From NCBI RefSeq assembly GCF_021730395.1, contig NC_069362.1, positions 84,088,001 through 84,152,000 on the forward strand: DNA of 64,000 nucleotides. The letters run 5' to 3'. Under the pieces are notes generated by a model, which was not told where the DNA came from, did no database searches, and was given only the letters and a program-made list of their open reading frames with translations. Both the position numbers and the translations under genes were made by a program. This DNA comes from Mercenaria mercenaria (Eukaryota > Mollusca > Bivalvia > Venerida > Veneridae). Positions 28 through 63,635 of this stretch are shown here, piece after piece. Within the stretch, counting starts at the first letter, position 1. The number at the start of each line of letters is the position of its first letter.

Positions 28-100
28 CGATCCCGGCAGGACTCGAACCTGCAATCTCCTGATCCGTAGTCAGGCGCCTTATCCATTGGGCCACGGGACC
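28..100 (-). tRNA. tRNA-Arg (anticodon ACG), intact
   Basis: The 73-nt cloverleaf reads on the minus strand. The acceptor is GGTCCCG against CGGGATC, the D arm is GCC/GGC, the anticodon stem is CCTGA/TCAGG, and the T arm is GCAGG-TTCGAGT-CCTGC. The anticodon loop CTACGGA gives ACG, which decodes CGU Arg (and CGC/CGA after A34-to-inosine editing). The internal A box (GTGGCCCAATGG) and B box (GGTTCGAGTCC) are intact. A run of T on the minus strand follows the 3' end within about 10 nt and could end Pol III transcription. It lies in a unit repeated at 2113-2480. Confidence 0.93.
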
Positions 101-2112: not shown

Positions 2113-2480
2113 CGGTTTATTTTTCACGTAAAAAAGTATCGATCCCGGCAGGACTCGAACCTGCAATCTCCTGATCCGTAGTCAGGCGCCTTATCCATTG
2201 GGCCACGGGACCTATATACCACATGTTTAAGTAAAAGAAGATTACATTCGAACAAGAAGCTGCGAAAGAGGAGGCTTGGCGTTTAAATATCGAATAGAAA
2301 AAGATTTTTTTTGTAAGACATATCACGTACTTTGGGACCACATGGAATTAAAAAAATGAAGGATTTTGAAGGTTTGAAACATAACCAGTTTGTATTTTTA
2401 AGTAAACTGCGACAGATGAGGGAGGCGATTGCCATTTAGCAGTTTCTTCAAAAGGAAAAGCAAATGAAACATTTTTAAAA
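2113..2480. repeat. Second copy of the tRNA-Arg unit, with the empty insertion site
   Basis: This matches 1-214 joined to 1754-1900 almost base for base, including the tRNA, the flank TATATACCACATGTTTAAGT and the downstream block around GACAGATGAG. It lacks the insertion at 215-1747. It therefore shows the pre-insertion state and dates the insertion after, or at polymorphic state with, the duplication. Confidence 0.85.
2140..2212 (-). tRNA. tRNA-Arg (anticodon ACG), intact
   Basis: The 73-nt sequence is identical to the gene at 28-100, with all arms paired, anticodon ACG and intact A and B boxes. A T-rich stretch follows the 3' end on the minus strand (plus-strand AAAAAAG just left of the gene). 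It sits in the same duplicated unit. Confidence 0.93.
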
Positions 2481-2528
2481 AAGAAGAATACACTTTTGCA
2501 ACACATTGTCGCATAAGGAGAAGTATGC

Positions 2529-2575
2529 GATCGCGGGATCCGCAGTCAGGCGACCTATCCATTGGTCACGGGACC
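2529..2575 (-). pseudogene. tRNA-Arg fragment
   Basis: It keeps the 5' half of the tRNA-Arg sequence (acceptor GGTCCCG, D arm and part of the anticodon arm) but has lost the T arm and the 3' acceptor strand. It cannot fold as a tRNA. Confidence 0.75.
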
Positions 2576-2714
2576 TGCGGAGCACATATAGAAGTTAAGG
2601 TTTCGGTTAAAGTGTGTGTATTAAAAATGGAGAAAAACAGAATAAACTACATGTGTACCAATATTTACGGACTGGATTAATGAGAAAGATATACGACAGA
2701 TGAGGCGGAATGGC

Positions 2715-2747
2715 GATCAGGCGCCTTATCTATTGGGCCACGGGACC
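2715..2747 (-). pseudogene. tRNA-Arg 5' fragment
   Basis: About 33 nt match the 5' acceptor, D arm and start of the anticodon arm (GGGCCACGGGACC on the plus strand). Everything 3' of this is gone. It is the remnant of a decayed array unit. Confidence 0.7.
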
Positions 2748-2879
2748 TACATCGCACATGTAAGTTAAGGACATTATAAGCCGTTGGGTAAAAAGAAAAG
2801 TCTAGGCGTTTAACTGTCTGAAAAAAAACAAAGAGGAAGGAAAGACGATATTTGTTTATGTTACATGAAATAAAAATAT

Positions 2880-2952
2880 ACGATTCCCTCAGTAGTAGAA
2901 CCCGCAATCTCCTGATCAGTAGTCAGGGACTTGCCAAATGGGACATTTGCCG
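2880..2952 (-). pseudogene. Degenerate full-length tRNA-Arg copy
   Basis: The full length is recognisable: a T-arm relict, CAATCTCCTGATCAGTAGTC for the anticodon arm, then a broken D arm and acceptor. The anticodon position is mutated and the acceptor strands no longer pair. Confidence 0.65.
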
Positions 2953-4525
2953 TGTAAACCACTTTGAAAAGATAACCCTGGCATCCTTATCGAGGAAATG
3001 TTAGCAATTATAGGTTTAGGAAAATATTATCTCCCTTCCTATGATAAAATTCACCGTCTCACTCCGTATACACACCTTTATCCCCACTAACACACATACA
3101 CCACATATTACAAAACAAATAAAAATCTAGGGAAAAAATGAAGTGAAATAATGGTACGAGATTAGTTTTTGTGTGTAATTTGTTTCTTAAGTGACATGGA
3201 TAGTTTTACATGGAAAAGCAACCGTGAGAGCTATTGGAAGAACTACTCAGTAACAAACTTGTAATGCATCTTTAACATTTTTTTGCATGCTTTATTGTGT
3301 CATGACAATCAATGTTTAATATGACATACACCACTTGTTGCTAACATAGTAAAAAAAACGTCTGATATTCGAGCAGTGCTAAGCTAAATATAACCAACAT
3401 TTGCAACAGCTTTTTGTCTGTGCACGATAATTGCACGATCTCTCGTGCACGACCTTAGTTGCCTTCTTTAGTCAAGTGATGCCGGTAGATTTTTGACGCC
3501 GGTTGTTAAGTTGGCAAGAGAGTTCACAGTGTGTACGTTGGCATACCGTCAACTGTAGATAAGACACATATTAACACCTGTATAATCAGCTACCTGTAAT
3601 CTGCGTACATGATGATGGAATCAGGCGAGCATTTGTTACAGTGGGTCGGTCACAAAGTAGCGTCACAAAGAGGGTAAGGAAAACATGATGTGACGCAACA
3701 CGTTAATCTTTAAATTATTTTAACCCAGTCATTGCAAATTCACTACAGCTGACTGGATTAGATTTATCCCACATTTGCTATAAAATCACTGGTAGTGGGA
3801 ACATCTCAGAAAAGACATATAATGGAAATTAGAAGGCTTTTCTAATAGTAGTATACAACTGATAATGTACGCATTCGAACAAACTTCTGTCTCATGCCTC
3901 GCATCTGTTTATAAGGTGCTGCATCTCCCAGTTGGTTCGTAACCTTCATTCGTTTTATATTTCTTATATCTATATTAAAAATGTCCATATTATTTTGCTA
4001 AAAAATGATCCAAATAGATTAAAACGATGTGCTTTTTTTTTTTCGTTTTTACTTTGTGGCTTGTCCTTCTGGAAATGTAATATTATAATGTCGGCAAAAT
4101 AACGCAACAAAAAACACTTCATTATTATAATAATTATATTGTGCACAATAAATGAATAAGAAATATGCAAAATGGAGGAAGAATTACATGAAAAAATAAT
4201 AAAAAAAATATCACATAAGCAATCGAGCAATAATTTTGAGAGAACGTGACAGGTGCATTTGTATGCAAGCAATTACTTCGGCTGTATGTGATTTACATTA
4301 TAATTCTGATTGCCAACATTTCAACGAGTATTTGATGAAATTGTTGATAAAGGGAAAAAACCTGTTGTTACACACCATACTTCGATTTTGAACGGTATCA
4401 GATACTGTTTTCACCCTATACACTAATTGGTTTACTAACAGAACAAGATTGACCTCACCAGATAGTAACCAAGAAGAAGTCTTTAATATGATCTAATGTT
4501 ATATCAATTCATATAAATATCTTAA
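2953..4525. other. AT-rich intergenic stretch, no gene seen
   Basis: I found no exon-like frame, RNA gene or clear repeat. There is a small imperfect palindrome around 3420-3455 (GTGCACGA and TCGTGCAC). The open frame on the minus strand around 3970-4272 is low-complexity and not protein-like. Confidence 0.5.
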
Positions 4526-4529
4526 TTAT

Positions 4530-4813
4530 CGGAATTTGAGTACTGGATGCACAGTGGTATGTGCTAAAGAGGAACTCGACCGCGACTGGTCAATTCCAGC
4601 AGGCATTTCTAGAAACCAGAATACTGTAAAGTTAGAGGGTGGATAGTGCATGATACAGGAGACGCTCCAATTCCAGAAGCTGCCCTGGTTCTTTAGTGTG
4701 CCAGGTGTAAAGCACCCATACACGGGACTTTTGTCCCAGTGTCAGTAATTTTTAGTCGAACTCGCGACCCTTGGTTCGTAGTCAGACTGTGTTACCACTG
4801 AACCACTGCGTCC
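4530..4813 (-). mobile_element. tRNA-derived SINE, copy A
   Basis: Read on the minus strand, the right end is a tRNA-like head. It has an A-box relative TGGTTCAGTGGTAA and a B-box relative GAGTTCGACT about 35 nt apart. The body that follows contains the phrases CCCAGTGT, AAGTCCCGTG and TTTACACCTGG. The same head plus body recurs at about 31495-31681, also on the minus strand, which defines a family. Ends and target duplications are not clear. Confidence 0.65.
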
Positions 4814-7330: not shown

Positions 7331-7493
7331 TTGAAAGGGTTGGAATAAAAGGACGTATGTGTATTTTAATGCATAAGCTGCGAAAGATGAGGCGAACTGT
7401 TGGTGTTTAACTGTTTGTTCTGAAGCAAAGACAAAAGAAAATGGAAAAAAAATATTTAACTTTACAGGACAATGTTGCACGGACTAAAGAATT

Positions 7494-7547
7494 CGATCTA
7501 TGAAGGACACCAGCCTGCAATATCCTAATCCACTTGGCCATTGGACC
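7494..7547 (-). pseudogene. Degenerate tRNA-Arg fragment
   Basis: Relicts of the T arm (CAGCCTGCAAT), anticodon region (CCTAATCC) and D arm/acceptor (TTGGCCATTGGACC) are spaced too closely for a cloverleaf. Confidence 0.5.
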
Positions 7548-7677
7548 TGTCGGTAAGGAATTAAGGATCTTCAAAGGTTGCCTTGGGATTTCCTGTGATA
7601 TGTCAAAAGAATAAACTGCCAATATTTATGGATTTATAAAAGAGCAGAAATGCGATAGTTGAAGCGAACGGGAGACA

Positions 7678-8013
7678 ATCAAAATCCCCTTGATCAAAAT
7701 CCCCTACACTGAAAAATGACAGGGTGTTACAAAATCCCCTTCATACTTTTGCAGGGGGTATCATAATCCCCTCTGTGATTTTTACTTGTTTCATCAAGTT
7801 CAAATACAACTATATACAACTTAAAAGTCCATTGCATAAAGCAAGTAAATACAATGCCTTTAGCAAACATAATATAATTTGGAGCACTCATATCTATATA
7901 TCTATAATGTTAATCACAGAGGGGATTATGATACCCCTGCAAATGTGCGAAGGGGATTTTGTAACACCCAGTCATTTTTCAGTGGAGGGGATTTTGATCA
8001 AGGGGATTTTGAT
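7678..8013. mobile_element. 336-bp MITE with ~100-bp terminal inverted repeats
   Basis: The left arm (7678-7780) and right arm (7912-8013) are reverse complements with only a few mismatches, around a loop of about 130 bp. The outer end is ATCAAAATCCCC. Inside each arm the phrase AAAATCCCCT, or a close variant, recurs four or five times. The whole could extrude as a hairpin. There is no coding capacity. A 9-bp direct repeat GAAGCGAAC lies a few bases outside both ends (about 7661 and 8022), but it does not abut the inverted repeats, so it may not be the target duplication. Confidence 0.85.
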
Positions 8014-8134
8014 ATACACTCGAAGCGAACTGGTAAAAGGTGGGCGTGTAACATTCACGGTCTTCAAAGGCAGAGATGAGGGTGGGGTAATATATATAAA
8101 TATCACAAGACGTGGTCACGTAAGGAAACATATA

Positions 8135-8260
8135 CGATCCCATTAGGTTTCCAACCTAAAATTTTCTGTAAGTACCAAACTAAACGTTCAGGACTGCGTC
8201 GGGTTATACCAAACAAATATTTTTCCTGATCCGTAGTCATGCGCCTTATTCATGAGAGGG
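8135..8260 (-). pseudogene. tRNA-Arg pseudogene split by inserted sequence
   Basis: The 3' acceptor and T-arm relict (CGATCCCATTAGG) sits at 8135-8169. The anticodon/D-arm relict (CCTGATCCGTAGTCATGCGCC) sits at 8225-8247, separated by about 55 unrelated bases. Confidence 0.5.
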
Positions 8261-8297
8261 TGATGGAAAATGCAGTAAATAATTATAATTATATGTA

Positions 8298-8368
8298 CGA
8301 TCCTTGCATGTCCCGAACCCGCAACCCCCGAATTAGAGTCAGTCGCCTTATCCATTGGCCAATGAACC
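8298..8368 (-). pseudogene. Diverged tRNA-Arg-like copy
   Basis: The 71 nt have recognisable D, anticodon and T arms (T loop TTCGGGA instead of TTCGAGT). The acceptor strands no longer pair. The anticodon arm reads ACTGACTCTAATTCGGG, unlike the ACG copies. It resembles the TCTAATTC part of tRNA-Arg(TCT) or is simply a decayed ACG copy. Confidence 0.5.
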
Positions 8369-8498
8369 TGCATAATATTATCTCACGTTTAAGTAAATCA
8401 ATAAAAGACTTTGTAACTTAAAAACATAAACACAAAACGAAGTAAAAATAATAATAAAAAGAACAACATTTCAGACATTTCACATGAACAAAAGCATA

Positions 8499-8565
8499 CG
8501 ATCCCGGCAGGACTTGAACCTGCAATCTCCTGATCCTAAGTCCGTATCCATTGGGCCACGGGACC
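8499..8565 (-). pseudogene. tRNA-Arg array copy 1, deleted
   Basis: The T arm and both acceptor strands are present, but the anticodon and D arms have lost several bases. The copy is 67 nt long and has no usable anticodon loop. Confidence 0.8.
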
Positions 8566-8685
8566 TGTATACCTACCGTTTAAGTAAATGAATCAACGAC
8601 TTTTAAATTTAAAAAAGAAACAAATACAAACGAAGGAAAGATACAAAAAAGAGAGATAATTGAAAGACACATGAATAAAAGCATG

Positions 8686-8758
8686 CGATCCCGGCAGGAC
8701 TCGAACCTGCAATCTCCTGATCCGTAGTCAGGCTTCTCATCCATTGCACACAGGGACC
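8686..8758 (-). pseudogene. tRNA-Arg array copy 2, degenerate D arm
   Basis: The length is 73 nt and the anticodon arm with ACG is intact. The D arm is scrambled (GGCTTCTCAT and TTGCACACAGG on the plus strand) and one acceptor pair is lost. It is probably non-functional as a tRNA, though both box elements are partly kept. Confidence 0.65.
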
Positions 8759-8889
8759 TGTATACCTCGCGTTTAAGTAAATGAATCAAAGACTTTGAAA
8801 CTTTAAAAAAAACACACACACACGATATAAACGAAAGAAATATACAGAAAAACACTTATTTTAAGACATTTGACATGAACAAATGGATA

Positions 8890-8962
8890 CGATCCTGGAG
8901 GGACTCGACCCTGCAATCGCCTGATCCGTAGTCAGGCGCCTTATCCATTGGGCCATTGGACC
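8890..8962 (-). pseudogene. tRNA-Arg array copy 3, mismatched acceptor and T arm
   Basis: The length is 73 nt and the anticodon is ACG. The acceptor GGTCCAA no longer pairs at the inner end with CAGGATC, and the T stem is mismatched. Confidence 0.6.
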
Positions 8963-9040
8963 TGTATATCTACCGTTTAAGTAAAAAAATCGAACACGTT
9001 GAAACTTTAAACAACAAAAATACAAACGAATTAAAACATA

Positions 9041-9113
9041 CGATCCCGGCAGGACTCGAACCTGCAATCTCCTGATCCGTAGTCAGGCGCCTTATCCATT
9101 GGGCCACGGGACC
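9041..9113 (-). tRNA. tRNA-Arg(ACG), array copy 4, intact
   Basis: The sequence is identical to the genes at 28-100 and 2140-2212 through all arms. A and B boxes are intact. The minus-strand 3' flank has TTTTAATTCG as a possible terminator. Confidence 0.92.
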
Positions 9114-9220
9114 TCTATATCTCTCGCTTAAAGACGTTGAAACTTTAAACAACAAAAAAACAAACGAATTAAAAATACAAAAACAATCATTTTAGGACAT
9201 TTCATATGTATAAAAGCATA

Positions 9221-9293
9221 CGATCCCGGCAGGACCCGAACCTGCAATCTCCTGATCCGTAGTCAGGCGCCTTATCCATTGGGCCACGGGACC
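9221..9293 (-). tRNA. tRNA-Arg(ACG), array copy 5, T-loop variant
   Basis: All stems pair and the anticodon is ACG. The T loop reads TTCGGGT instead of TTCGAGT, changing the normally invariant A58. It may be transcribed, but function is uncertain. Confidence 0.7.
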
Positions 9294-9401
9294 TCTATAT
9301 CGCTCGTTTAAGGCGTTGAAACTTTAAACGACACAAATACAAACGAAGGAAAAATACAAAAAAAAATCATTTTAGGACATTTCACATGAACAAAAAGCAT
9401 A

Positions 9402-9474
9402 CGATCCCGGCAGGACCCAAACCTGCAATCTCCTGATCCGTAGTCAGGCGCCTTATCCATTTGGCCACGGGACC
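9402..9474 (-). pseudogene. tRNA-Arg(ACG), array copy 6, T-loop decayed
   Basis: The length is 73 nt with anticodon ACG. The T loop reads TTTGGGT, which breaks the B box, and there is one substitution at the D arm. It is a likely pseudogene. Confidence 0.6.
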
Positions 9475-9593
9475 TCTATATCTACCGTTTAAGTAAATAA
9501 ATCAAAGACTTTTAAATTTAAAAAAGAAACAAATACAAACGAAGGAAAAATACAAAAAAAAAGATAATTGAAAGGCACGTGAATAAAAGCATG

Positions 9594-9667
9594 CGAGTCA
9601 TGGCAGGACTCGAACCTGCAATCTCCTGATCCGTAGTCAGGCGCCTTATCCATTGGACCACGGGACC
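9594..9667 (-). pseudogene. tRNA-Arg(ACG), array copy 7, broken acceptor
   Basis: The anticodon, D and T arms are well kept, but the 3' acceptor strand reads CATGACTC and no longer pairs with GGTCCCG. Internal promoter boxes remain. Confidence 0.65.
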
Positions 9668-9767
9668 TGTATAACTCGCGTTAAGGTAAATGAATCAGAG
9701 ACTTTAAAAAAACACACAAAAATACAAACGAAGAAACAAAAGTACATTTCACATGAACAAATGCATG

Positions 9768-9840
9768 CGATCCCGGCAGAACTCGAACCGACAATCGCCT
9801 GATCCGCAGTCAGGCGCCTTATCCATTGGGCCATGGGACC
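9768..9840 (-). pseudogene. tRNA-Arg array copy 8 with GCG anticodon, weak T stem
   Basis: The anticodon loop CTGCGGA gives GCG (still Arg, CGC) rather than ACG. The T stem GTCGG/TCTGC has a mismatch and two G-T pairs, and the last acceptor pair is lost. It is more likely a decaying copy than a new isoacceptor. Confidence 0.6.
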
Positions 9841-9954
9841 TGTATATCTACCGTTAAGGTAAAATAATCGAACACGTTGAAACTTTAAACAACACAAATA
9901 CAAACGAAGCAAAAAAAAAATCATTTTAGGACATTTCACATGAACAAAAGCATA

Positions 9955-10026
9955 CGATCCCGGCAGGACTCGAACTTGCAATCTCCTGATCCGTAGTCAG
10001 GCGCCTTATCCATTGGCCACGGGACC
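9955..10026 (-). tRNA. tRNA-Arg(ACG), array copy 9, slightly degenerate
   Basis: The length is 72 nt. One G is missing from the D-arm side, giving GTGGCCAATGG, and there is one T-stem mismatch. The anticodon is ACG and the acceptor is intact. Confidence 0.6.
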
Positions 10027-10138
10027 TCTATATCTCCGCTTAAAGACGTTGAAACTTAACCAACACAAATACAAACAGGAAAAATGCAAAAAAATGCAAA
10101 AAAAAATCATTTAGGACATTTCACATGAACAAAGCATG

Positions 10139-10210
10139 CGATCCCGGCAGACTCGATCCTGCAATCTCCTGATACGTAGTCAGGCGCCTTATCCTTTGGG
10201 TCACGGGAAC
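10139..10210 (-). pseudogene. tRNA-Arg(ACG), array copy 10, degenerate
   Basis: The length is 72 nt. There are substitutions in the T loop, next to the anticodon (CTACGTA loop), in the D loop and in the acceptor (GTTCCCG). The anticodon ACG survives. Confidence 0.6.
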
Positions 10211-10319
10211 TCTATATCTTTCGCTTAAAGACGTTGAAACTTTAAACAACACAAATACAAACGAATCAAAAATACAAAAAAAAAATCATTTTAGGACATT
10301 TCACATGATCAAAAGCATA

Positions 10320-10392
10320 CTATCCCGGCAGGACTCGAACCTGCAATCTCCTGATCCGTAGTCAGACGCCTTATCCATTGGACACCGGGACC
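10320..10392 (-). tRNA. tRNA-Arg(ACG), array copy 11, near intact
   Basis: The length is 73 nt with anticodon ACG and intact T arm. The first acceptor pair is lost and the D-arm 5' strand has changed (GTGTCCAATGG), so function is doubtful but possible. Confidence 0.6.
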
Positions 10393-10514
10393 TGTATAAC
10401 TCGCGTAAAAGTAAATGAATCAAAGGCTTTGAAACTTAGAAAAACACACACGAAAACACAAACGAAGAACTTTTTTTTTTAAAAAAGAAGACATTTCACA
10501 TGAACAAAAGCATA

Positions 10515-10587
10515 CGATCCCGGCAGGACTCGAACCTGCAATCTCCTGATCCGTAGTCAGGCGACTTATCCATTGGGCCACGGGACC
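10515..10587 (-). tRNA. tRNA-Arg(ACG), array copy 12, one D-stem change
   Basis: It matches the intact genes except for a single substitution in the D stem (GTCGCC for GGCGCC). All other arms and both promoter boxes are intact. Confidence 0.75.
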
Positions 10588-10708
10588 TCTATATCTCCCG
10601 CTTAAAGACGTTGAAACTTTAACCAACACAAATACAAACGAGGGAAAAATGCAAAAAAAAATGCAAAAAAAAAATCATTTTAGGACATTTCACATGAACA
10701 AAAGCATA

Positions 10709-10781
10709 CGATCCCGGCAGGACTCGAACCTGCAATCTCCTGATCCGTAGTCAGGCGCCTTATCCATTGGGCCACGGGACC
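10709..10781 (-). tRNA. tRNA-Arg(ACG), array copy 13, intact
   Basis: The 73 nt are identical to the genes at 28-100 and 9041-9113. The minus-strand 3' flank GTATGCTTTTG supplies a terminator. Confidence 0.92.
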
Positions 10782-10888
10782 TCTACATCTCTCGCTTAAA
10801 GGCGTTGAAACTTTAAACAACACAAATACAAACAAGGGGAAAATACAAAAAAAATCATTTTAGGACATTTCACATGAACAAAAGCTTA

Positions 10889-10960
10889 CAATCCCGGCGG
10901 GACTCGAACCTGCAATCTCCTGATCCGTAGTCAGGCGCCTTATCCATTGGGCCACGGACC
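10889..10960 (-). tRNA. tRNA-Arg(ACG), array copy 14, one acceptor base missing
   Basis: The length is 72 nt. The acceptor reads GGTCCG with one C absent, the T stem has one change that still pairs poorly, and the anticodon ACG and boxes are intact. Confidence 0.6.
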
Positions 10961-11088
10961 TCTACATCTATCGTTTAAATAAATGAATCAAAGACTTTGA
11001 ACCTTAAAAAACACACATACAAATACAAACGATGGAAAAATACAAAAGAACACCTTAATTTAAGACATTTCACATGAACAAATGGATA

Positions 11089-11147
11089 CGATCCAGACAG
11101 GACTCGAATTTGCAATCTCCTGATCCGTAGTCAGGGACCATGGGACC
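11089..11147 (-). pseudogene. tRNA-Arg array copy 15, D arm deleted
   Basis: The length is 59 nt. The anticodon arm and T-arm relict remain, but the D arm and part of the acceptor are gone. Confidence 0.8.
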
Positions 11148-11269
11148 TGTATCTATCATATCTAAGTAAACGAATAAAAGACCTTGAAGCTGAAAAAAAA
11201 CACACATACAAACGAATAAGAAATACAAAATGATATAATTTTTAGACATTTCACATGAGCAAAAGAAAA

Positions 11270-11335
11270 CGATCCCGGTAATATTCGAACCTGTAATCTC
11301 CTGATCAGGCAGCTGATCTAGTGGACGACATAACC
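11270..11335 (-). pseudogene. tRNA-Arg array copy 16, highly degenerate
   Basis: Only the 3' acceptor/T-arm region (TTCGAACCTGTAATCTCCTG on the plus strand) is well kept. The anticodon is lost and the 5' half is scrambled. Confidence 0.75.
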
Positions 11336-11455
11336 TGCATTATCCACATTTAAGTAAAGAAATAAAAGACTTTGAAATTTTGAAAAACAAATGCAAACGT
11401 AGAAATTCAAAATAAAAGGATATAAATTTAAGACTTTCACATTAAGAAAACTATA

Positions 11456-11528
11456 CGATCCCGGCAGGATTCGAACCTGCAATCTCCTGATCCGTAGTCA
11501 GGCGCCTTATCCATTGGGCCACGGGACC
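11456..11528 (-). tRNA. tRNA-Arg(ACG), array copy 17, intact
   Basis: The 73-nt cloverleaf is fully paired, with anticodon ACG and T loop TTCGAAT. It is the outermost unit on the ATOH8 side. The minus-strand 3' flank has TTTTC a few bases after the gene. Confidence 0.92.
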
Positions 11529-11544
11529 AGTATATTACATGTCT

Positions 11545-14500
11545 TACTTTAGGAAAGTAACAAAAAATGATTGTGATATTTAATAAGTAGAAAAATGAAC
11601 TACGACATAAAGATTATGTTGATTTGTGAAACTCTTTCTAGCCCGTCTAAAATTATAGAAATGTTGTTTTTTCTGCGAATTGTTGCAATATAAGATTGAA
11701 CCATATCTGATGTTTTCACTTGGTGAAAAATGCCCTATATACACTATGGAAAACATTGAATTTAAATGTAAATGTGTTGGTAATAACACTAAAATATATT
11801 TTTTTCACGCGTAGTGTTGAATCTGGTGCTCACTAGGTGACAAAAAAATAAAATATTTTAGGAAAAAAAAATCCCACACCATAAGTAATAGAGACGGCTA
11901 CAGTAATATTTTTTTAAGATTTTTTTCTCATCGGTGGTTGAGTGATAATCTAGCCGCGTTTAAAATTTTTGAAATACAGTGCATCTGTCTGTATATGATA
12001 GTAGGTAAACCATCATTGCGGTTTTTATCGAGACATCTGTCTCCATATGACACATAAAACCGTGTTTTAATAAATCAGCCCTTGCGATAACATTTAATTT
12101 TACATTTCACGGGTACCGTCTCCTTGTAAAGTGTCTTTATCCAATCAGATTACTTCAGTTTTGCGACAATCGTAAAGTAAACTTTAAAAAACCACATTGC
12201 TATTACAAGTGGATTTTGTCGCACAAGAAGCCGTTGATCAAATATAGTGTTACTCCAGTATAAGTAAGCGCAGGTATGCAGACTGTCCGGCGCCTAAAAC
12301 AGTCGACTTGCTTTATTTTGCCTTAAACGAAATAGGTGTGAATTGGATGAACCATTGAAACGACAAATCGCATTTGTTCAGTTTGTGTATTTATTAAATA
12401 CTTTGCAAGACGGGTTAACGTCATTTCTCGACACCCTTAACAGATTGCATCAAAGGAACAGGTGATAAACAGGCGCCTGAATGAGACAGATTGGCGGCGA
12501 TTTAGATAGTAAGAGTACCAGTCTTATTATAATGGCAGTGTGCTGGCATTTTAATAATTTTGTGAGTCAACAGTAACCTTTTAATTGAGTTAAAATCAAA
12601 TATTTTATTTGTTGATTTGAATGAACAAATAATTGGAACAAATGGGCAACTTGCTAAAAAAAGAGTTTAGTCGGAAATACATCTGTAATAGGATCAATAG
12701 TTCTTCAACATAATTATCATATATATTTATGTATATAACTTGTATTTTAATGGGGCGAAACTGCACATCGTAGACCGCAGCTCATAATCAGCTATTAACA
12801 ATGACACGCGCAATTTGATTGTGATATTTCAAATACCGATACAAATCTTAAACTGCAATTTGCAGCAATAAAACATTATTTCCTGTTCAAAGTTAAAATG
12901 AATAAATGGAATTCTCAATCAAGGCATAATAATTTCATATTCAATGTTTTCAACTATAAATTCACACCAAGAGTCAAGCAATTAATGACTGAGTTTGAAG
13001 TTTATTTGGATATATCCCCTCGTTCGGCGCCACAGAGCCGGGCTCTCGCCAATTTTATGATGAAAAATTGCTGACACCTTGTGTTTACGGTGTAAATCTG
13101 GCGAACGCACTTATCTACCTGCCTACCATATGGCTGTTATGATCCCATCAAGAGTTATTATATGTAAATACGCAACAAATTGCTACCACTATTTATAGTC
13201 TAATCAAATATCTCTGCCAGATTTTCATCAAACATTTGCAAGGTAGTTGAAGAGGAAGATTACTCAAAATATCCCGTGATTTTTTTTCTAGATTATTAAG
13301 TATTTTATGAGGTTTAACAGATTTTCTAGAAAACAAAATTCAAATTAGAAAAAAACTATAGCCATGAAGATTATATCCGGAAACTTTGTGGGTAGAAAAT
13401 ATGGTGCACTTGTTTCCCGCCAGTCATACAGAATTATGTTCACAGCTGTTTATTGACCGGGTTAATGGAACGTGCACCTCCAGGGATCCCGTGTGTTGCG
13501 TGGTGCTGATTATCTGTCACAGATGTACCAGATGTTATTGGTCAAGTACTAATTCCATGGATAGGGTAATTAATCACCTGTCAAGTTCTAACAGGATCAC
13601 AAACACCATCAGTGAGGAATATCGCGCTCGTTATATTATAGATTTAGAATTAATACCCGTTCAAAAAGTACAACACTTACAGTAGGTCATTGAATTAAAT
13701 CAAAGGTTCAGTTTTAGTACTAAAACTCAAAGAAGTAAACACGCCATATCATTTTCTTGCCCACGGGACCAGTTAGTGTACGTGAAACATTGATGTTTGA
13801 TTTGACAGTCTATGTGGCGACATCAGCCCGATACATTATCTTTGATGATTCCCTTAGGGGCCCTATATTGCAAGGTGTCTTGCTTTCACATATTTTTGTT
13901 GTTAAACATGAATTTTCACGGTTGCGCTATACATGCAACGAAACAATTCAATCGGAAACAATCCAGTGCTGGAATTTCATTTTCCGTCGGGGGACTTCGC
14001 TTGTTTTCTGATATCTATGGCGTGAATGTTTTCATCTGCTACATATGTTGTATCTCTCGCTATAATGTTTCTCTGTATTGATTAGCTACATTGTGATTAG
14101 TGTGGTTGAAAGAGAATCGATTCACGAAGCGAATAGAGCCACCTGGTGCTGAAGCTGGTAAATAATAGGATTAATGGGAGTGCTTGATTGTTATCAGTAG
14201 CCGGTGTGGACACAAACAAATGCCAAGATCGATCTCCCGGCGGGCAACAAGTAATAATAAGTCACGCAGTGAATTTTGTCAATATTGCTCTGAAACTCAG
14301 GTCCGCTGTTAAATGTGTTAATTGAAATATTAGATTGCCCAAAATCAGTAATTTTACTGTAAAACAAATCCTCTAGGTCGATGACCTCGTTAAAATAAAG
14401 GTTAAGAAAAATTATAGGTTAAACTTTTTTTTAAAGTATGGAACTTAAAAGATATTAACAGGAACGAAAATATAACAATGTGAAAAAAAAAATAATACAG

Positions 14501-14711: not shown

Positions 14712-14864
14712 CGGATCAGTTTTCTTTAGGCAGTCGTAGTATTAACATACGGTAAAATATTGGATAGAGTGAAAAACTGCTAATCGTTTGACAGATAGAG
14801 AGAAGAGACACAAATAATTATTTTTTAAATGATTTGACAGAAAAATAGTGTAATTGATTTAAAA

Positions 14865-15863
14865 ATGGCTTTGGAATTAACGATGCGGCACGGGACCGTA
14901 GGAAGTTTAGTGGTGCCGGATATTAAACCTCGGTTCCAGAGACAGGACTCTGATACTCCGTTATCACCATCAGACACCCCGAGAAAAAATAAAAGGAAAT
15001 TAAGTGAGCCCAAGAGGCGGACTACGGATTTTAGTATAAAACGCTTATGCCCGGACAGTCCTGGCAGTGCTTGTTCTGAAAGTGGGCGTAGCGAGGAAAG
15101 TACTCCAGAACGATTGCACGAGGACTCTAGGGATTCTGGTGATTGTTTAAGCCCAGACGGACTGCCAGCCGAAAGGGACATAGTCCCGCCACATTTTAGA
15201 CCACCTTTTGTGTTTCCAGACGTTCGCCATCATCCGTACTTCATTCCACAGTTTTATTATAATCGTTTTCCCGGTTTTCCTGCCAGTGGACCTTTGCCGA
15301 CGGGTTTTCCTGCCGGTATGACTGGATTACCCACCGTTCCTACTCTCAGTGTTCCAAATGTTCCAGCTCAGCATAAGTCACAATCTAGTCAGGATATTTC
15401 TACAAAACATAGTCCACCATCTCCATCGCAACCGGTGCACGTGCAAAATAAGAAACAGTCACATTGTAAATCACGAGCATCTAGTCCTAAACCAAACCGA
15501 GAAGAGGAAGATGATGACATTAGTTCACCAGATAGTCCTAAGGACAGTAAAAGAAATCGCAAAAATTACAAAAATATGACACGTGAAAGAAGAGTAGAAG
15601 CTAATGCACGTGAGCGGTCACGTGTACATACAATAAGTGCTGCATTTGACGGATTACGACGTGCCGTGCCATCTTATTCTTATAACCAAAAACTATCCAA
15701 ACTTGCTATTTTACGGATAGCTTGTAGTTATATAAATGCATTGACTAAGTTGGCAGATACCGATGATGGCAGTCCTCAGTTACAGAGTACATCATTTGCA
15801 GAGTGTGTAGACAATTGTACTAGGACAATTCAAACGGAAGGAAAAGCCCGACGGAGACATTAA
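14865..15863 (+). CDS. ATOH8: Atonal homolog 8 (net)-type bHLH transcription factor
   Basis: A single uninterrupted frame of 332 residues. The first ~235 residues are low-complexity: Ser/Pro-rich (about 25-100), Pro/Phe/aromatic-rich (about 108-150), then an acidic EEEDDD stretch (213-218). The bHLH is at about 240-297: basic region with ERRVEANARERSRVHTISAA, loop with PSYSYNQKLSKLAILRI, and helix 2 ending at LTKLAD. The N-A-RER-R core contacts E-boxes. HTISAAF and the C-terminal SFAEC..CTRTIQ.EG block (310-326) are hallmarks of the ATOH8/net subfamily and separate it from atonal, neurogenin and Hand proteins. Vertebrate ATOH8 is of similar length. ATG at 14865 follows AAAA and gives the conserved length. 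Family members act in the nucleus as dimerising regulators of neural, muscle, endothelial and endocrine development. The gene has no intron here. Confidence 0.93.
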   Translation: MALELTMRHGTVGSLVVPDIKPRFQRQDSDTPLSPSDTPRKNKRKLSEPKRRTTDFSIKRLCPDSPGSACSESGRSEESTPERLHEDSRDSGDCLSPDGLPAERDIVPPHFRPPFVFPDVRHHPYFIPQFYYNRFPGFPASGPLPTGFPAGMTGLPTVPTLSVPNVPAQHKSQSSQDISTKHSPPSPSQPVHVQNKKQSHCKSRASSPKPNREEEDDDISSPDSPKDSKRNRKNYKNMTRERRVEANARERSRVHTISAAFDGLRRAVPSYSYNQKLSKLAILRIACSYINALTKLADTDDGSPQLQSTSFAECVDNCTRTIQTEGKARRRH

Positions 15864-18329: not shown

Positions 18330-19880
18330 TGGGTGCTTTGCCTCTCAAACATGATCATTTTTATTAAATCGGTCCCAATGCATATCTGCTTGAGATCGTT
18401 TGGAGTCAGTACCTCCCAGTTTCATTCTAGACAAGTTCGGGTGCTTTCCTCATGTCAGACAGTACTCTTCTGATTCAAACAGTACAGATATGACCGCCCT
18501 GTGTTAGTCATAACCCACTGTTTCAATAAAAAGGGACCGTTTTCAATGCAACGGTTGCTGCATTTCTGCTTTCATCAGTACTGAAATGACTGCTTTGCTC
18601 CAGTAGGTACGATAAGACTGCTTTTGCGTCAGTCAGAATCTCTTTGTTTTTATTTAAACAGTACTGTTCCTTTCTGTGTCACTCATTACCGATGGAAATA
18701 TTTCGCAAGTTGGTAACTCTTTCGCTTGAATTGCTTCAACGTGTACAATACGTCCAATAAGCGCCAGTGAGTACCTGTCTGTTCTTATTAGTACAAATAC
18801 GACCGCTTTGTGTCAGTCAAGACATCTTGTCTTCAGACATTACGATCCGACCGCTTCGCGCCAGTCGATACATCTTTGTTTCAGTCAGTACAATAAGACC
18901 GCTTCGCGCCAGTCTATACATCTTTGTTTCAGTCAGTACAATAAGACCACTTCGCGCCAGTCGATACATCTTTGTTTCAGTCAGTACAATAAGACCGCTT
19001 CGCGCCAGTCGATACATCTTTGTTTCAGTCAGTACAATAAGACCACTTCGCGCCAGTCGATACATCTTTGTTTCAGTCAGTACAATAAGACCGCTTCGCG
19101 CCATTCGATACATCTTTGTCTCAGTCAGTACAATAAGACCGCTTCGCGCCAGACGATACATCTTTGTCTCAGTCAGTACAGTAAGACCGCTTCGCGCCAG
19201 TCGATACATCTTTGTCTCAGTCAGTACAATAAGACCGCTTCGCGCCAGTCGATACATCTTTGTTTCGGTCAGTACAATAAGACCACTTTGCGCCTGTCAG
19301 TATGTATGCTTCAGTCAGTACAATAAATCCGCTGTGCGTCAGTCAGTACCGCTATGTTTCGACAAAGTACAAATATGACCGCGTTGCATCAGTCAATACA
19401 CCTTGACTGTAGTCAGTACAACTCGCCCGTTTTGCGTCAGTCATTGCATCTTTGTTTCATTCAGTACATACGCTCCAGTCAGTACAATAAAACCACTCTG
19501 CGTCAGTCAGTACCACTATGTTTCGATAAAGTACAAATATGACTGCGTTGCGTCACTCAATATTTTTGTAGTCAGTACAACTCGACTGCTTTGCGTCAGT
19601 CAGTACATCTTTGTTTCATTCAGTTCATGTGCCCCAGTCAAGTACAAATACGACCGCGTTGCGTCAGTCAATACATCTTTGCTTCGTCGAACAAAAAAAC
19701 TGTTTTTCGTCAGTGAGTACTTCTTTCTTTCAATCAATGCTGTACCATTCCGTTCGTTTAGTACCGTTTTAAATCCTTTTGTCTGTCAGTAACTCAGTAC
19801 AATACGGTCAGAACCTTTCTGTTTTCTCCCCAGTATAAATATAACCGCTTTGCGTAAGTCAGTACAACTTCTTCCCTTTT
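18330..19880. repeat. 48-bp minisatellite, ten near-perfect units plus diverged flanks
   Basis: Ten units of exactly 48 bp run from about 18849 to 19325. The core is GACCGCTTCGCGCCAGTCGA followed by TACATCTTTGTTTCAGTC and AGTACAATAA. More diverged relatives (GACCGCTTTGCGTCAGTCAG) spread from about 18360 to 19870. Because 48 is divisible by three, the array stays open in several frames: +18767-19378 (203 codons, repeating TIRPLRASRYIFVSVS), +18808-19326 (repeating QYNKTASRQSIHLCFS) and -18817-19257 (repeating YRLARSGLIVLTETKM). Openness in three frames on both strands argues for a satellite rather than a gene. Confidence 0.85.
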
Positions 19881-34067: not shown

Positions 34068-36655
34068 GTGAGAGAATTTTCTTTAATGTTCATTTTTCGT
34101 CAGAATTCTATTATTAGATGTAAAGTTGTCTTGGTTTTTGTACTTACGACAGAACAGAAACGCTGTTTAATACCAATAATTACTGTTTAAAGGGAGGGAA
34201 TAGCCCATTATCACTCCATTAATGTATGCCAGAGTTACGTTTCCGCAAAAATCCTATTAAAACATGCGAACACATGCCCACACCTTCAACCCCCATCCAA
34301 ATGAAAAAGTACCCAGATAGCCTAGTGGTAGGGCATCCGCTTCGAATGTGGGAGGTATTGGGTTCGATTCCCGGCTGCCTGATAACAAATCAATGAAAAA
34401 TGGCACCAATAGCTTGGCGCTTACCTGGCTTCTCTTTTATACCCTTGTGGCGATGGTTTCCATAATATAAATCAGTGTAAATGGAAAATATGGACTTTTG
34501 GTCATAATTTGCGCCCCACTCCAATATTTGTATGAACTTAGTAGACGATAGTTATAGATGTCTTTCTTTGTAACAGTTTTTATAATAAATAATTAGCTAG
34601 TAAATAAGTTTTAAGTGTTTTAATAAAATGCACAAATTAAAAATTACAATGTCGTTATTACCACTTTGTCACAGGCTATTATGTACAATATTATTATTAT
34701 CGTATAGTGCATTTAACATATTTCTCAAATTTTCATCTATAGAACACTTTTAGGTGACTAAAATTGTCCTTAAAAGAAGTTTTAATTATAACACAATAAA
34801 CAAGAGCTGTCCGTAAGACAGCGCGCTTCACTATTCGGCGATTTGCCAGTAAAATGAATTTATATCTCAATAAGACACCTCTGCTTTAAAAGGAATACAC
34901 CAAGATATAAAAAGACCCTAATACTCAGAGGGGTTAAAGGTCAAGTATGGAAGGGGTAATGATGATGATGGTAAAGATATATTTGGAGTTTCAAGTCATT
35001 ATCTTGTATAATACTAAAGTTATGTCCAGAAAACTAAGTTTGTCAAAACATTTAAGTATGAAAGGGGCATAATTTGGTCAAAAATACAAATTAGAGTTAT
35101 GGGGATTGTTACCACTCATGCAAATGATGATGATCGTGATAAAGTTTAAGTGTCAAGTCATTATCTTATATTATACTAAAGTTATATCCAGAAAGCAAAG
35201 ATTTCCGAAACACTAAGTATGGAAGGGGCATAAGTCTGTCAAAAATACAATTAGAGTTATGGGGATGGTAACCACACATGCAGATGATGATTATAAAGAA
35301 ATATATTTAATTTCAGGTCATTATCTTTTAAAGTTCCAAAGATATGTCTATAAACAAAGCTTTCGAAAAATTAACATGAAAATAATTCCAAGTATAACAC
35401 CTTGGTGACCTTGACCGTGGGTAAAATGGGCCCAGCCCCTGCACATACTTTGCTTGTATGCTGGACAATGTTTATTTGAAGTTACAGTAAGATATAAGCA
35501 ATAGTAACAAAGAAATGACAGAAAAACAAAGGTTGCCGAAAAACTTTAACCTTAAAAATAACCTAAGTATAACACCTTGGTGACCTTGACCTTGGGTATA
35601 ATGGGCCCAGCCCCTGCACATACTTTGTATGCTGGACAATGTTTATATGAAGTTACAGTAAGATATAAGCAATAATAACAAAGATATTACAGAAAAACAA
35701 AGCTTGCCAAGAAACTTTAACCTTAAAAATAACCTAAGTATAACACCTTGGTGACCTTGACTTTGGGTATAATGGGCATAGCCCCTGCATATACTTCGTT
35801 TGTATGCTGAACAATATTTATGTGAAGTTACAATAAGATATAAGCAACAGTTACAAAGATATGACAAAAAAAAAACAAAGGTTGCCGAGAAACTTTAACA
35901 TTAAAAGTAACCTAAGTATAACACCTTGGTGACCTTGACCTTGTGCATAGTGGGCCCAGCCCCTGCACATACTTTGCTTGTATGCTGGACAATGTTTATG
36001 TAAAGTTACAGTAAGATATAAGAAATAGTAAAAAAGATATGACAGAAAAATAAAGGTTGCCGAAAAACTTTAACCTTAAAAATAACTTAAGTATAACACT
36101 TTGGTGACCTTGACCTTGGGTATAATGGGCCCATCCCCTGCACATACTGTGTTTGTATGCTAGACAATCTTTATGTGAAGTTACAGTAAGATAAAAGCAA
36201 TAGTAAGAAAGAAAACAAAGGTTGCCGAAAAGCTTTAATCAAGAAAGGTCACGCCGACGCCGACGCCGGCCGACGCCGGGGCGGGTAGAATACCCCCCCC
36301 CCCCTCCCCCGGGCCTGGTGGAGGTAGTGGCAAATGTCCTATACATACCGTCTCAGCAGAGTCGCAAATGTCCAGCTTTCCACTTTTCAACGGATTTTTG
36401 ATTTCTGGAGTGGGGGCAAATGTTATCTAGATATTTCGGGTTATTTGTTTGGGTTAATGGTGAACTATGTTTTTATTGAAGAGACAGCGGAGAGGAGACA
36501 CACCTATCGAGATCTTTTCAGTATTTGCTTGCTTTCCTTATATAGATCGTGATGATAAATGTACCTGCTTTAATTCTCATGTAAGCTTACTTGAGGTCAA
36601 ATATGGTCATTGTCTCCCGAAATTTGGCTGTGCTTTGTTTCTCAACTCTAACCCT

Positions 36656-53647: not shown

Positions 53648-55250
53648 GTCTGTCAACATTTGGCTTGTGTATGCAATAGAGGCTGTATTTTTCAACTGAT
53701 CTTCATGATATTTGGTCAGAATGATAACCTTGATAAAATCTAGGCCGAGTTCTAAAATGGGTCATCTTGGGTCAAAAACTAGGTCACTAGGTCAAATCAA
53801 AGAAAAACCTTGTGTATGCGATAGAGGCTGTATTTTTCAATTGATCTTCATGAATATTGGTCAGAATGATTGCCTTGATGAAATCTAGGCCGAGTTCGAA
53901 AATGGGTCATCTCGAATCAAAAACTAGGTCACTAGGTCAAATCAAAGAAAAATCTTGTGTATGCGATAGAGGCTGTATTTTTCAGTTATTCTTCATGAAT
54001 TTTGGTCAGATTGATAACCTTGATAAAATCTAGGCTGAGTTCAAAAATGGGTCATCTCGGGTCAAAAACTAGGTCAAATCAAAGAAAAACCTTGTGTATG
54101 CGATAGTGGCTGTACTTTTCAATTGATCTTCATGAATATTGGTCAGAATGATTGCCTTGATGAAATCTAGGCAGAGTTCGAAAATAAGTCATCTGGGGTC
54201 AAAAACAAGGTCACTAGGTCAAATCAAAGAAAAACCTTGTGTATGCGATAGAGGCGGTATTTTTCAATTGATCTTCATGAATTTAGGTCAGAATGATAAC
54301 CTTGGTAATATCTAGGCCGAGTTCAAAAATGGGTCATCTGGGGTCAAAAACTAGGTCACTAGATCAAATCAAGGAAAAACCTTGTGAATGCAATAGAGGC
54401 TGTATTTTTCAATTGATCTTCATGAATTTTGGTCAGAATGATAACCTTGATGAAATTTAAACCAAGTTCGAAAATGGGTCATCTGGGGTCAAAAACTAGG
54501 TCACTAGGTCAAATCAAAGAAAACCTTGTGTATGGAATTGAGGCTGTATTTTTCAACTGATCTTCATGAAATTTAGCCAGAATGATAACCTTGATAAAAT
54601 CTAGGCCGAGTTCGAAAATGGGTCATCTGGGGTCAAAAACTAGGTCACTAGGTCAAATCAAAGAAAAACATTGTGTGTACAATAGAGGATGTATTTTTCA
54701 ATTGATCTTCATGAAATTTGGTCAGAGTGATTGCCTTTGTGAAATCTAGGTTGAATTTGAATATGGGTTATCTGAGGTCAAAAACTAGGTCACTAGGTCA
54801 AATTAAAGAAAAATCTTGTGTATGTGATAGAGACTGTTTTTTTTTCAATTGATTTTTATGAAATCTGGTCAGGATGATTGCCTTAATGAAATCTAGGTCG
54901 AATTTGAATATGGGTCATCTGAGGTCAAGAACTAGGTCACTTGATCAAATCAAAGAAAAAACTTGTGTATGTGATAGAGGCTGTATTTTTCAGTTGATCT
55001 TTGAATTTTGGTCAGAATGATTGCCTGGATAAAATCTAGGTCGAGTTTGAACATGGGTCATCTAGGGTCAAAAACTAGGTCATATCTAAGAAAATGCTTG
55101 TTTTATCGCAAGAGACCAATTTTTTGGTCCAATCTTAATGAAAATTGGTCAGAATATTTGTTTCCATGAAATCACAAGGTCAAACATGTTTTACACTGTT
55201 ATTGTGTGTTTCTTAGGTGAGCGACCTAGGGCCATCTTGGCCCTCTTGTT
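53562..55250 (+). mobile_element. Helentron-like element, family S, copy 2
   Basis: It starts AGCTCACCTGAGCAATGCTC, a palindrome running into AGGTGAGTT, then a GTCTGTCTGTCTG tract. The core has about ten units of roughly 145 bp with CTTGTGTATGCGATAGAGGC, TTCAATTGATCTTCATGAA, GGTCAGAATGATAACC and AACTAGGTCACTAGGTCAAA. The right end has TTAGGTGAGCGACC (inverted match to the start), the hairpin GGGCCATCTTGGCCC and TCTTGTT. Cores of copies 1 and 2 are unrelated, while the ends match. Confidence 0.78.
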
Positions 55251-61984: not shown

Positions 61985-63635
61985 CGTTGGATGTACAGTA
62001 CCCTACACCAACAAGCTGGACGTATAGAATCCTATTTCAATGTCAGGTTGGACGTACAGTACCCTACACAAGTGACATATCGGACGTACATAATCCTATT
62101 TCAATGTCAAGTTGGACGTACAGTCCTTACAACAGTGACAAGTTGGACGTACAGTACCCTACAGGGACAAGCTGGACGTACAGAATCCTATTTCAATATC
62201 AAGTTAGATGTACAGTACCCTACAACAGTGAGTCACTGTCAGTGACAAGCTGGACGTACAGAATCCTGCTTCAGTGTCAAGTTAGACGTAAAGTACCCTA
62301 CAACAGTGACAAGCTGGACGTACAGAATCCTACTTCAGTGTCAAGTTGGACGTACAGTACCCTACACTAGTGACAAGCTGGACGTACACCAGTGACAAGC
62401 TGGACGTACAGAATCCTATTTCAATGTCAAGTTGGACGTACAGTACCCTACAACAGTGACAAGCTGGACGTACAGAATCCTACTACAGTGTCAAGTTGGA
62501 CGTACAATACCCTACACCAGTGACAAGCTGGACGTACAGAATCCTATTTCAATGTCAAGTTGGACGTACAATACCCTACACCAGTGACAAGCTGGACGTA
62601 CAGAATCCTATTTCAATGTCAAGTAGAACGTACAATACACTTCACCAGTGACAAGCTGGACGTACAGAATCCTATTTCAATGTCAAGTTGGACGTACAGT
62701 ACCCTACAACAGTGACAAGCTGGACGTAAGTAATCCTACTACAGTGTCAAATAGGACGTACAATACCCTACACCAGTGACAAGCTGGACGTACAGAATCC
62801 TATTTCAATGTCAAGTTGGAGGTACAGTACCCTACAACAGTGACAAGCTGGACGTACAGAATCCTACTTCAGTGTCAAGTTGGACGTACAATACCCTACA
62901 CCAGTGACAAGCTGGACGTACAGAATCCTATTTCAATGTCAAGTTGGACGTACAGTACCCTTCACCAGTGACAAGCTGGACGTACAATGTCAAGTTGGAC
63001 GTACAATACCCTACAACAGTGACAAGCTTGACGTACAGAATCCTATTTCAATGTCAAGTTGGACGTACAGTACCCTACAACAGTGACAAGCTGGACGTAC
63101 AGAATCCTATTTCAATGTCAAGTTGGACGTACAGTACCCTACACCAGTGACAAGCTGGACGTACAGAATCCTATTTCAGTGTCATGTTGGGCGTACAATA
63201 CCCTACAACAGTGACAAGCTGGACGTACAGAATCCTATTTCAATGTCAAGTTGGACGTACAATACCCTACACCAGTGACAAGCTGGACGTTCAGAATCCT
63301 ATTTCAATGTCAAGTTGGACGTACAGTACCATACAACAGTGACAAGCTTGACATACAGAATCCTATTTCAATGTCAAGTTTGACGTACAGTATCCTACAA
63401 CAGTGACAAGCTGGACGTACAGAATCCTATTTCACTGTCAAGTTGGAGGTGCAGTACCCTACAACAGTGACAAACTTGACGTACAGAATCCTACTTCAGT
63501 GTCAAGTTGGACGTAAAGTACCCTACAACAATGACAAGCTGGACGTACAGAATCATACTTCAATGTACAGTACCCTACTCCACTGACAAGTTGGACGTAC
63601 AGTATCCAACGTCAGTGTCAAATTGGACGTCCAAT
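61985..63635. repeat. 64-bp dimeric satellite, about 26 units
   Basis: The unit is two ~32-bp halves. Half 1 is CAAGTTGGACGTACAGTACC followed by CTACAACAGTGA; half 2 is CAAGCTGGACGTACAGAATC followed by CTATTTCAATGT. The shared TGGACGTACAG shows the halves had one origin. Units at the left end and some inside are shortened. Frames running through it (61987-62370 and others, MDVQYPT…SWTYRILFQC…) are by-products; the period is not a multiple of three. Confidence 0.92.

Follow-up and report, generated by a model that had tools for sequence, protein, structure and literature searches.

In many eukaryotes, tandem clusters made of one kind of transfer RNA (tRNA) gene have originated independently, and their turnover is fast (PMC2888827); the accepted model for tRNA clusters is tandem duplication followed by pseudogenization, for which single-gene steps have been assumed for simplicity in an orthology method (PMC4981973). 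Here we describe a tRNA-Arg(ACG) array in the bivalve Mercenaria mercenaria, located in a 64,000-nucleotide stretch of DNA (assembly GCF_021730395.1, contig NC_069362.1, positions 84,088,001 to 84,152,000 of the forward strand; hereafter the window, to which all coordinates refer). Seventeen units derived from tRNA-Arg(ACG) lie head to tail at positions 8499-11528, all on the minus strand. With a probability that we put at roughly 0.87, they form a homogeneous cluster in which a nuclear tRNA-Arg(ACG) gene, repeated in tandem, undergoes birth-and-death evolution, with few copies under constraint. The array belongs to a known kind, the homogeneous tRNA gene clusters with pseudogenes described in many eukaryotes; a multi-unit step is visible in it, and a large share of its units is dead.

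The survey of homogeneous tRNA gene clusters defines them by a single isoacceptor and neighbours no more than 1000 nt apart, and the array fits this definition, with 16 spacings of 151-204 bp on the minus strand; rapid turnover and pseudogenes are expected in such clusters (PMC2888827). The survey reports counts and orientations but no within-array history, and molluscs are unmentioned in its text. The tRNA-Cys cluster on chromosome 5 of Arabidopsis thaliana (PMC10701932) is alike in its single isoacceptor, tandem units of tRNA plus spacer (84-94% identical), adjoining pseudogene and mutated tRNAs. It differs in having four copies of ~420-bp units, overlapping annotated transposable elements and ecotype variation, whereas the clam array holds 17 units of ~185 bp that are mostly dead and show a five-unit block order. 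The Arabidopsis Ser-Tyr-Tyr (SYY) cluster on chromosome 1 (PMC12308677) likewise has a core grown by tandem duplication, variable flanks and internal tRNA-like pseudogenes; in contrast, each of its units carries three tRNAs of two kinds, and the cluster is methylated and reactivated in root tips. The human 1q23.3 locus (PMC4041453) is also a tandem tRNA-bearing repeat, although its units measure 7.3 kb and contain several tRNAs and a CTCF site, with proven copy-number variation. The tRNA genes of Entamoeba also stand in tandem, in mostly uniform units of up to five genes separated by short tandem repeats (PMC2652664). The clam array has neither the uniform multi-gene unit nor the short tandem repeats between genes, since its spacers are mostly diverged by ~7-23%, most of its units are dead and each holds a single tRNA gene. 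No bivalve or mollusc tRNA-Arg array was found in the literature searched, and a literature search with the tRNA sequence itself gave no match; an expansion of Ser and Thr tRNA genes is described for an oyster, with no clustering reported (PMC9679248).

Units were numbered from left to right on the plus strand, and copies are named here by the low plus-strand coordinate of the tRNA, which is its 3' end. These ends lie at 8499, 8686, 8890, 9041, 9221 and 9402 (units 1-6), at 9595, 9768, 9955, 10139, 10321 and 10515 (units 7-12) and at 10709, 10889, 11088, 11269 and 11456 (units 13-17), giving spacings, in order, of 187, 204, 151, 180, 181, 193, 173, 187, 184, 182, 194, 194, 180, 199, 181 and 187 bp (mean 185 bp). 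ARAGORN recognised 14 of the 17 units, with mutations making one read as Leu(TAG) and another as Arg(GCG), and the gathering score of Rfam RF00005 was also reached by 14; the remaining three units are detectable through sequence similarity. A profile of the whole unit scored 117-177 bits at all 17 units and at most 1.8 bits in shuffled sequence, which excludes chance as their source. The 17 copies at ~185-bp spacing given in a preliminary description of this DNA are thus upheld by unit profile, ARAGORN and Rfam, with the strand, unstated there, now identified as minus. That tRNA finders might reject every copy, the outcome named there as fatal, did not occur, as the best copies reach 62-63 bits (ARAGORN, Rfam). 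Similarity between units extends beyond the tRNA into the 5' flank and the 3' trailer and covers most of the spacer. The spacer, 5' flank and TTTT terminator had been described as common to the copies, and this holds for flanks and spacer; 13 of 17 units carry a TTTT run (T4) no further than 25 nt from the tRNA 3' end, the exceptions being 8890, 9768, 10139 and 11088.

The order of the spacers points to growth by more than single units. Sorted into classes a-d from a similarity matrix, the first 14 spacers from the left give the series a b c d d a b c d d b d d b, and the two after them are strongly diverged. The five-letter word abcdd occurs twice, and when the letters are shuffled a repeat of such length has p=0.0095. 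Similarity between spacers at lag 5 is likewise elevated (p=0.02, one of eight lags tried), a test that is modest alone and is used only together with the word-repeat and in-register tests. Block 1 (8499..9401, minus strand) and block 2 (9402..10320, minus strand) both have spacers a b c d d and match at 91.3% identity in register, compared with 86-88% at seven shifted registers; block 3 (10321..10888, minus strand; spacers b d d) is shortened and resembles block 2 minus units (93.4%). Since defects are shared within class c (G7A and A44C, at 8890 and 9768) and within class b (C11T, at 9595 and 10321), the sequences suggest that some copies were already damaged at the time of block copying. 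Part of the array growth was thus probably by multi-unit block duplication, with about five units (~0.9 kb) taken in a single event, defective copies included.

Few copies have the features of a working gene. The 73-nt tRNA is identical, with zero changes, at 9041 and 10709 in the array and in two outlying copies to the left, at 28..100 (minus strand; ARAGORN, Rfam) and 2140..2212 (minus strand; flanks ~95% identical to those of 28-100). The copy at 11456 differs from this perfect tRNA at G59A alone, with a purine at position 59 retained. All five copies pass Rfam RF00005 with the anticodon ACG (62.2 bits for 9041 and 10709, 63.5 bits for 11456; 62-63 bits overall), and all five keep the A and B boxes and a T4 at +5 or +6. 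The boxes and T4 are also kept at 10515, where a D-stem pair is broken, and at 10889, where the acceptor and T stems are broken; each of the remaining array units is without at least one of A box, B box and T4. Apart from 9041, 10709 and 11456, every array unit (14 in all) is damaged in a stem, in the A or B box, or by indels. Positions 56 and 58 of the tRNA and the B box are important for tRNA structure and for transcription by RNA polymerase III (pol III). The copies at 9221 and 9402 score 57-58 bits, and their changes strike invariant T-loop positions that also lie within the B box. RNA folding energies gave no clean separation of sound from broken copies. Judged by cloverleaf, boxes and T4, about three copies in the array (9041, 10709 and 11456) and five in the window appear sound, so that the four to eight workable copies first proposed for the array were too generous an estimate.

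Comparison of tRNA and spacer divergence indicated that constraint is split between classes. Over all block-paired units, the two parts diverge alike, at 9.8% for tRNA and 8.5% for spacer in five independent pairs (p=0.55) and at 8.7% for both in nine overlapping pairs. In class d, to which the perfect copies belong, divergence is 1.8% for the tRNA and 6.3% for the spacer (p=0.0004), that is, 3-4 times less change in the tRNA, whereas in classes a, b and c the block pairs show 13.2% for tRNA and 8.1% for spacer (p=0.07 in the opposite direction). The tRNA of classes a-c therefore changes at least as fast as the spacer in these comparisons, as would be the case in dead genes. Furthermore, 14 of 107 spacer sites differ between the perfect copies 9041 and 10709, and at that rate the chance of finding 0 of 73 tRNA changes is ~4e-5. 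The ratio of tRNA to spacer divergence drops from ~1 for recent pairs to 0.3-0.5 for old pairs, and this drop with pair age, together with the split constraint, fits a picture in which sound copies are progenitors and dead copies are tips.

The absence of constraint from most units is also what would be seen if they were copies of a tRNA-derived short interspersed nuclear element (SINE) or of a tRNA-headed satellite, with the tRNA likeness a mere matter of ancestry and no copy serving translation. Such SINEs are common in animals, and the window contains other tRNA-like stretches without a full gene, for example at 34310. We nevertheless regard this explanation as improbable: four copies are identical over 73 nt while their flanks are diverged by 5-13% or unalignable, each sound copy has its T4 terminator directly after the tRNA with no run-on into a SINE body, and the unit profile found no significant match in the other 52 kb of the window, all significant matches lying below 11.6 kb. 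Slightly less probable still is that the array persists because it serves the chromosome (as insulator, replication-fork pause or heterochromatin), with selection acting on the binding of TFIIIC to the B boxes and not on tRNA output. Human 1q23.3 tRNA repeats are bound by CTCF (PMC4041453) and replication forks can stall at tRNA gene clusters (cited in PMC2888827). In the clam array, however, the consensus B box is gone in 10 of the 17 copies, so that B boxes as such are not kept, and the constraint in class d spans the whole tRNA while classes a-c show none. Tandem repeats are prone to misassembly, yet a false expansion is very unlikely because exact repeats within the array do not exceed 81 bp, no 100-mer is repeated and differences occur throughout the units, and an array produced by assembly, whether expanded or collapsed, is the least credible explanation of all, with some collapse of near-identical units possible.

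A homogeneous cluster under birth-and-death evolution would have formed as follows. A single pol III gene, consisting of the 5' flank, the tRNA with internal A and B boxes and the T4 terminator, would have been duplicated locally many times; about five units would have been taken together in at least one duplication step, and a shorter block in another. The constrained copies (9041, 10709 and 11456, with 28 and 2140 leftward) most likely supply Arg-tRNA with A34 at the wobble position, for which we infer transcription of the sound copies, and the remaining copies would be passengers that decay like unconstrained DNA. In general, A34 of tRNA-Arg(ACG) is edited to inosine, and this tRNA is the main CGN decoder in many animals, as the preliminary description remarked. 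At 8295, 11088 and 11269, close to either end of the dense array, lie the most diverged units. Shared flanks, the same orientation, a repeated multi-unit order, the units missing from block 3 and the diverged ends together fit a gain and loss of tandem units through unequal exchange, either between sister chromatids or between homologues. This would be the simplest source of the block duplication, and replication-based template switching would give an identical pattern. Amplification by unequal exchange had been put forward in the preliminary description; local amplification is supported by shared flanks and block order, while template switching would account for the pattern as well as unequal exchange does. 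Its claim that birth and decay are visible within one array agrees with the shared flanks, block order, split constraint and defects. Intact and decaying copies coexist, and duplication was repeated and took in decayed copies, as birth-and-death evolution entails.

Several points weigh against this account. The pairwise comparisons have units in common and so are not fully independent, and gene conversion confined to the tRNA could mimic the constraint seen in class d. The block test covers 14 spacers whose classes come from the same similarity matrix, which makes it a strong description and not a fully independent test. Moreover, the basis is the sequence of one window in one assembly.

The state of the individual units, all on the minus strand, is most easily followed by spacer class. 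In class a, unit 1 (8499..8565) is a pseudogene with a 6-nt deletion and an altered anticodon arm, called Leu-TAG by ARAGORN, and unit 6 (9402..9474; C13A, C56T, A58G) is likely dead despite its 57.8 bits. Class b contains three pseudogenes, namely unit 2 (8686..8757; A box broken), unit 7 (9595..9667; acceptor stem changes and C11T) and unit 11 (10321..10392; A box changes, C11T and deletion of C72), and the b-like unit 14 (10889..10961), with broken acceptor and T stems and intact boxes. Both class c units are pseudogenes without T4: unit 3 (8890..8962) has seven changes, including G7A and A44C, and a broken B box, and unit 8 (9768..9840) has the anticodon GCG together with the same G7A and A44C. 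Class d comprises the sound tRNA-Arg(ACG) units 4 (9041..9113; same sequence as 28, 2140 and 10709) and 13 (10709..10781), the doubtful units 5 (9221..9293; A58G disrupts the T loop and B box) and 12 (10515..10587; the sole change, G24T, loses a D-stem pair), unit 9 (9955..10026), likely dead through a one-base D-arm deletion and G52A, which breaks a T-stem pair, and unit 10 (10139..10211), a pseudogene with seven changes and no T4. At the right end, unit 15 (11088..11148; ~14-nt deletion, no T4) and unit 16 (11269..11338; anticodon region deleted) are remnants, and unit 17 (11456..11528), the 5'-most copy in the direction of transcription, appears sound with G59A as its only change.

Traces of the unit extend to the left of the dense array. 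The unit profile detected remnants on the minus strand at 2526..2600 (37.7 bits), 2717..2786 (40.5 bits), 2844..2962 (46.4 bits) and 7462..7550 (30.7 bits), a short tRNA remnant at 8224..8253 (21.4 bits) and, adjoining the array, a whole-unit remnant at 8295..8429 (69.8 bits). Because these remnants and the perfect copies at 28 and 2140 are spread through it, the window from 1 to 11.5 kb appears to be one old, broken-up tRNA-Arg locus of which the array is the densest part. A conserved 5' promoter element was considered as a candidate (CTTAAAC ~20 bp and TATAyA ~6 bp upstream, common to the outlying copies) and rejected: the near 5' flank is hardly better kept than the outer one, pairwise divergence within the array being 0.23-0.25 in all three 5' zones, and common ancestry is therefore sufficient to explain both motifs. 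The flank of the 28-100 copy is interrupted by a ~1.5-kb insertion (213-1744) that is missing from the corresponding flank near 2320. With its inverted ends CAGCGCCGTAGCCACAC / CAGTGCCGTAGCCATAC, CTTATC flanking each side and internal degenerate repeats, this insertion resembles a non-autonomous DNA transposon. A long inverted repeat of GGGGATTTTGAT-type sequence immediately left of the array, at 7678-8020, was seen by eye and has the look of a miniature inverted-repeat transposable element. A tRNA-like stretch at 4741-4810 (minus strand) carries CTGACTACGAACC followed by unrelated sequence; it has a weak unit profile score (4.2 bits) and is possibly the head of a tRNA-derived SINE.

The window as a whole is AT-rich with many diverged repeats. 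At 34310-34382, ARAGORN called a tRNA-Ser(CGA) whose Rfam match (32.5 bits) is limited to model positions 8-63, which makes a SINE head or a pseudogene a likelier identity than a working gene. A 341-codon open frame at 14838-15863 encodes a helix-loop-helix domain (Pfam HLH, E 1.6e-17), which we take to resemble the Net/ATOH8 type. Tandem repeats include a 48-bp minisatellite of ~14 units at 18790-19468, with several frames open on both strands, a 145-bp repeat of ~10 units at 53664-55082 and, as another higher-order repeat in the window, a nested array at 61986-63630 with periods of 32, 64 and 128 bp (GGACGTACAGAATCCTA units).

These results bear on how tRNA genes are counted and on how they turn over. 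Raw tRNA counts (14 calls) exceed the likely working genes (~3) several-fold, and a covariance score alone can pass a copy with a broken B box, such as 9402 at 57.8 bits. A further idea, which we hold only tentatively and think somewhat less probable than its opposite, is that a five-unit higher-order repeat re-amplifies damaged copies as passengers of a few constrained progenitors, with multi-copy blocks as the regular unit of tRNA gene turnover; if true, this would run contrary to the single-gene duplication assumed for simplicity (PMC4981973). The array leaves existing knowledge of tRNA biology unchanged, as gene birth and decay here are of a familiar kind, and it is an instructive example of tRNA gene gain and loss, in which few progenitors appear constrained, many copies appear unconstrained and block duplication would copy damaged genes too.

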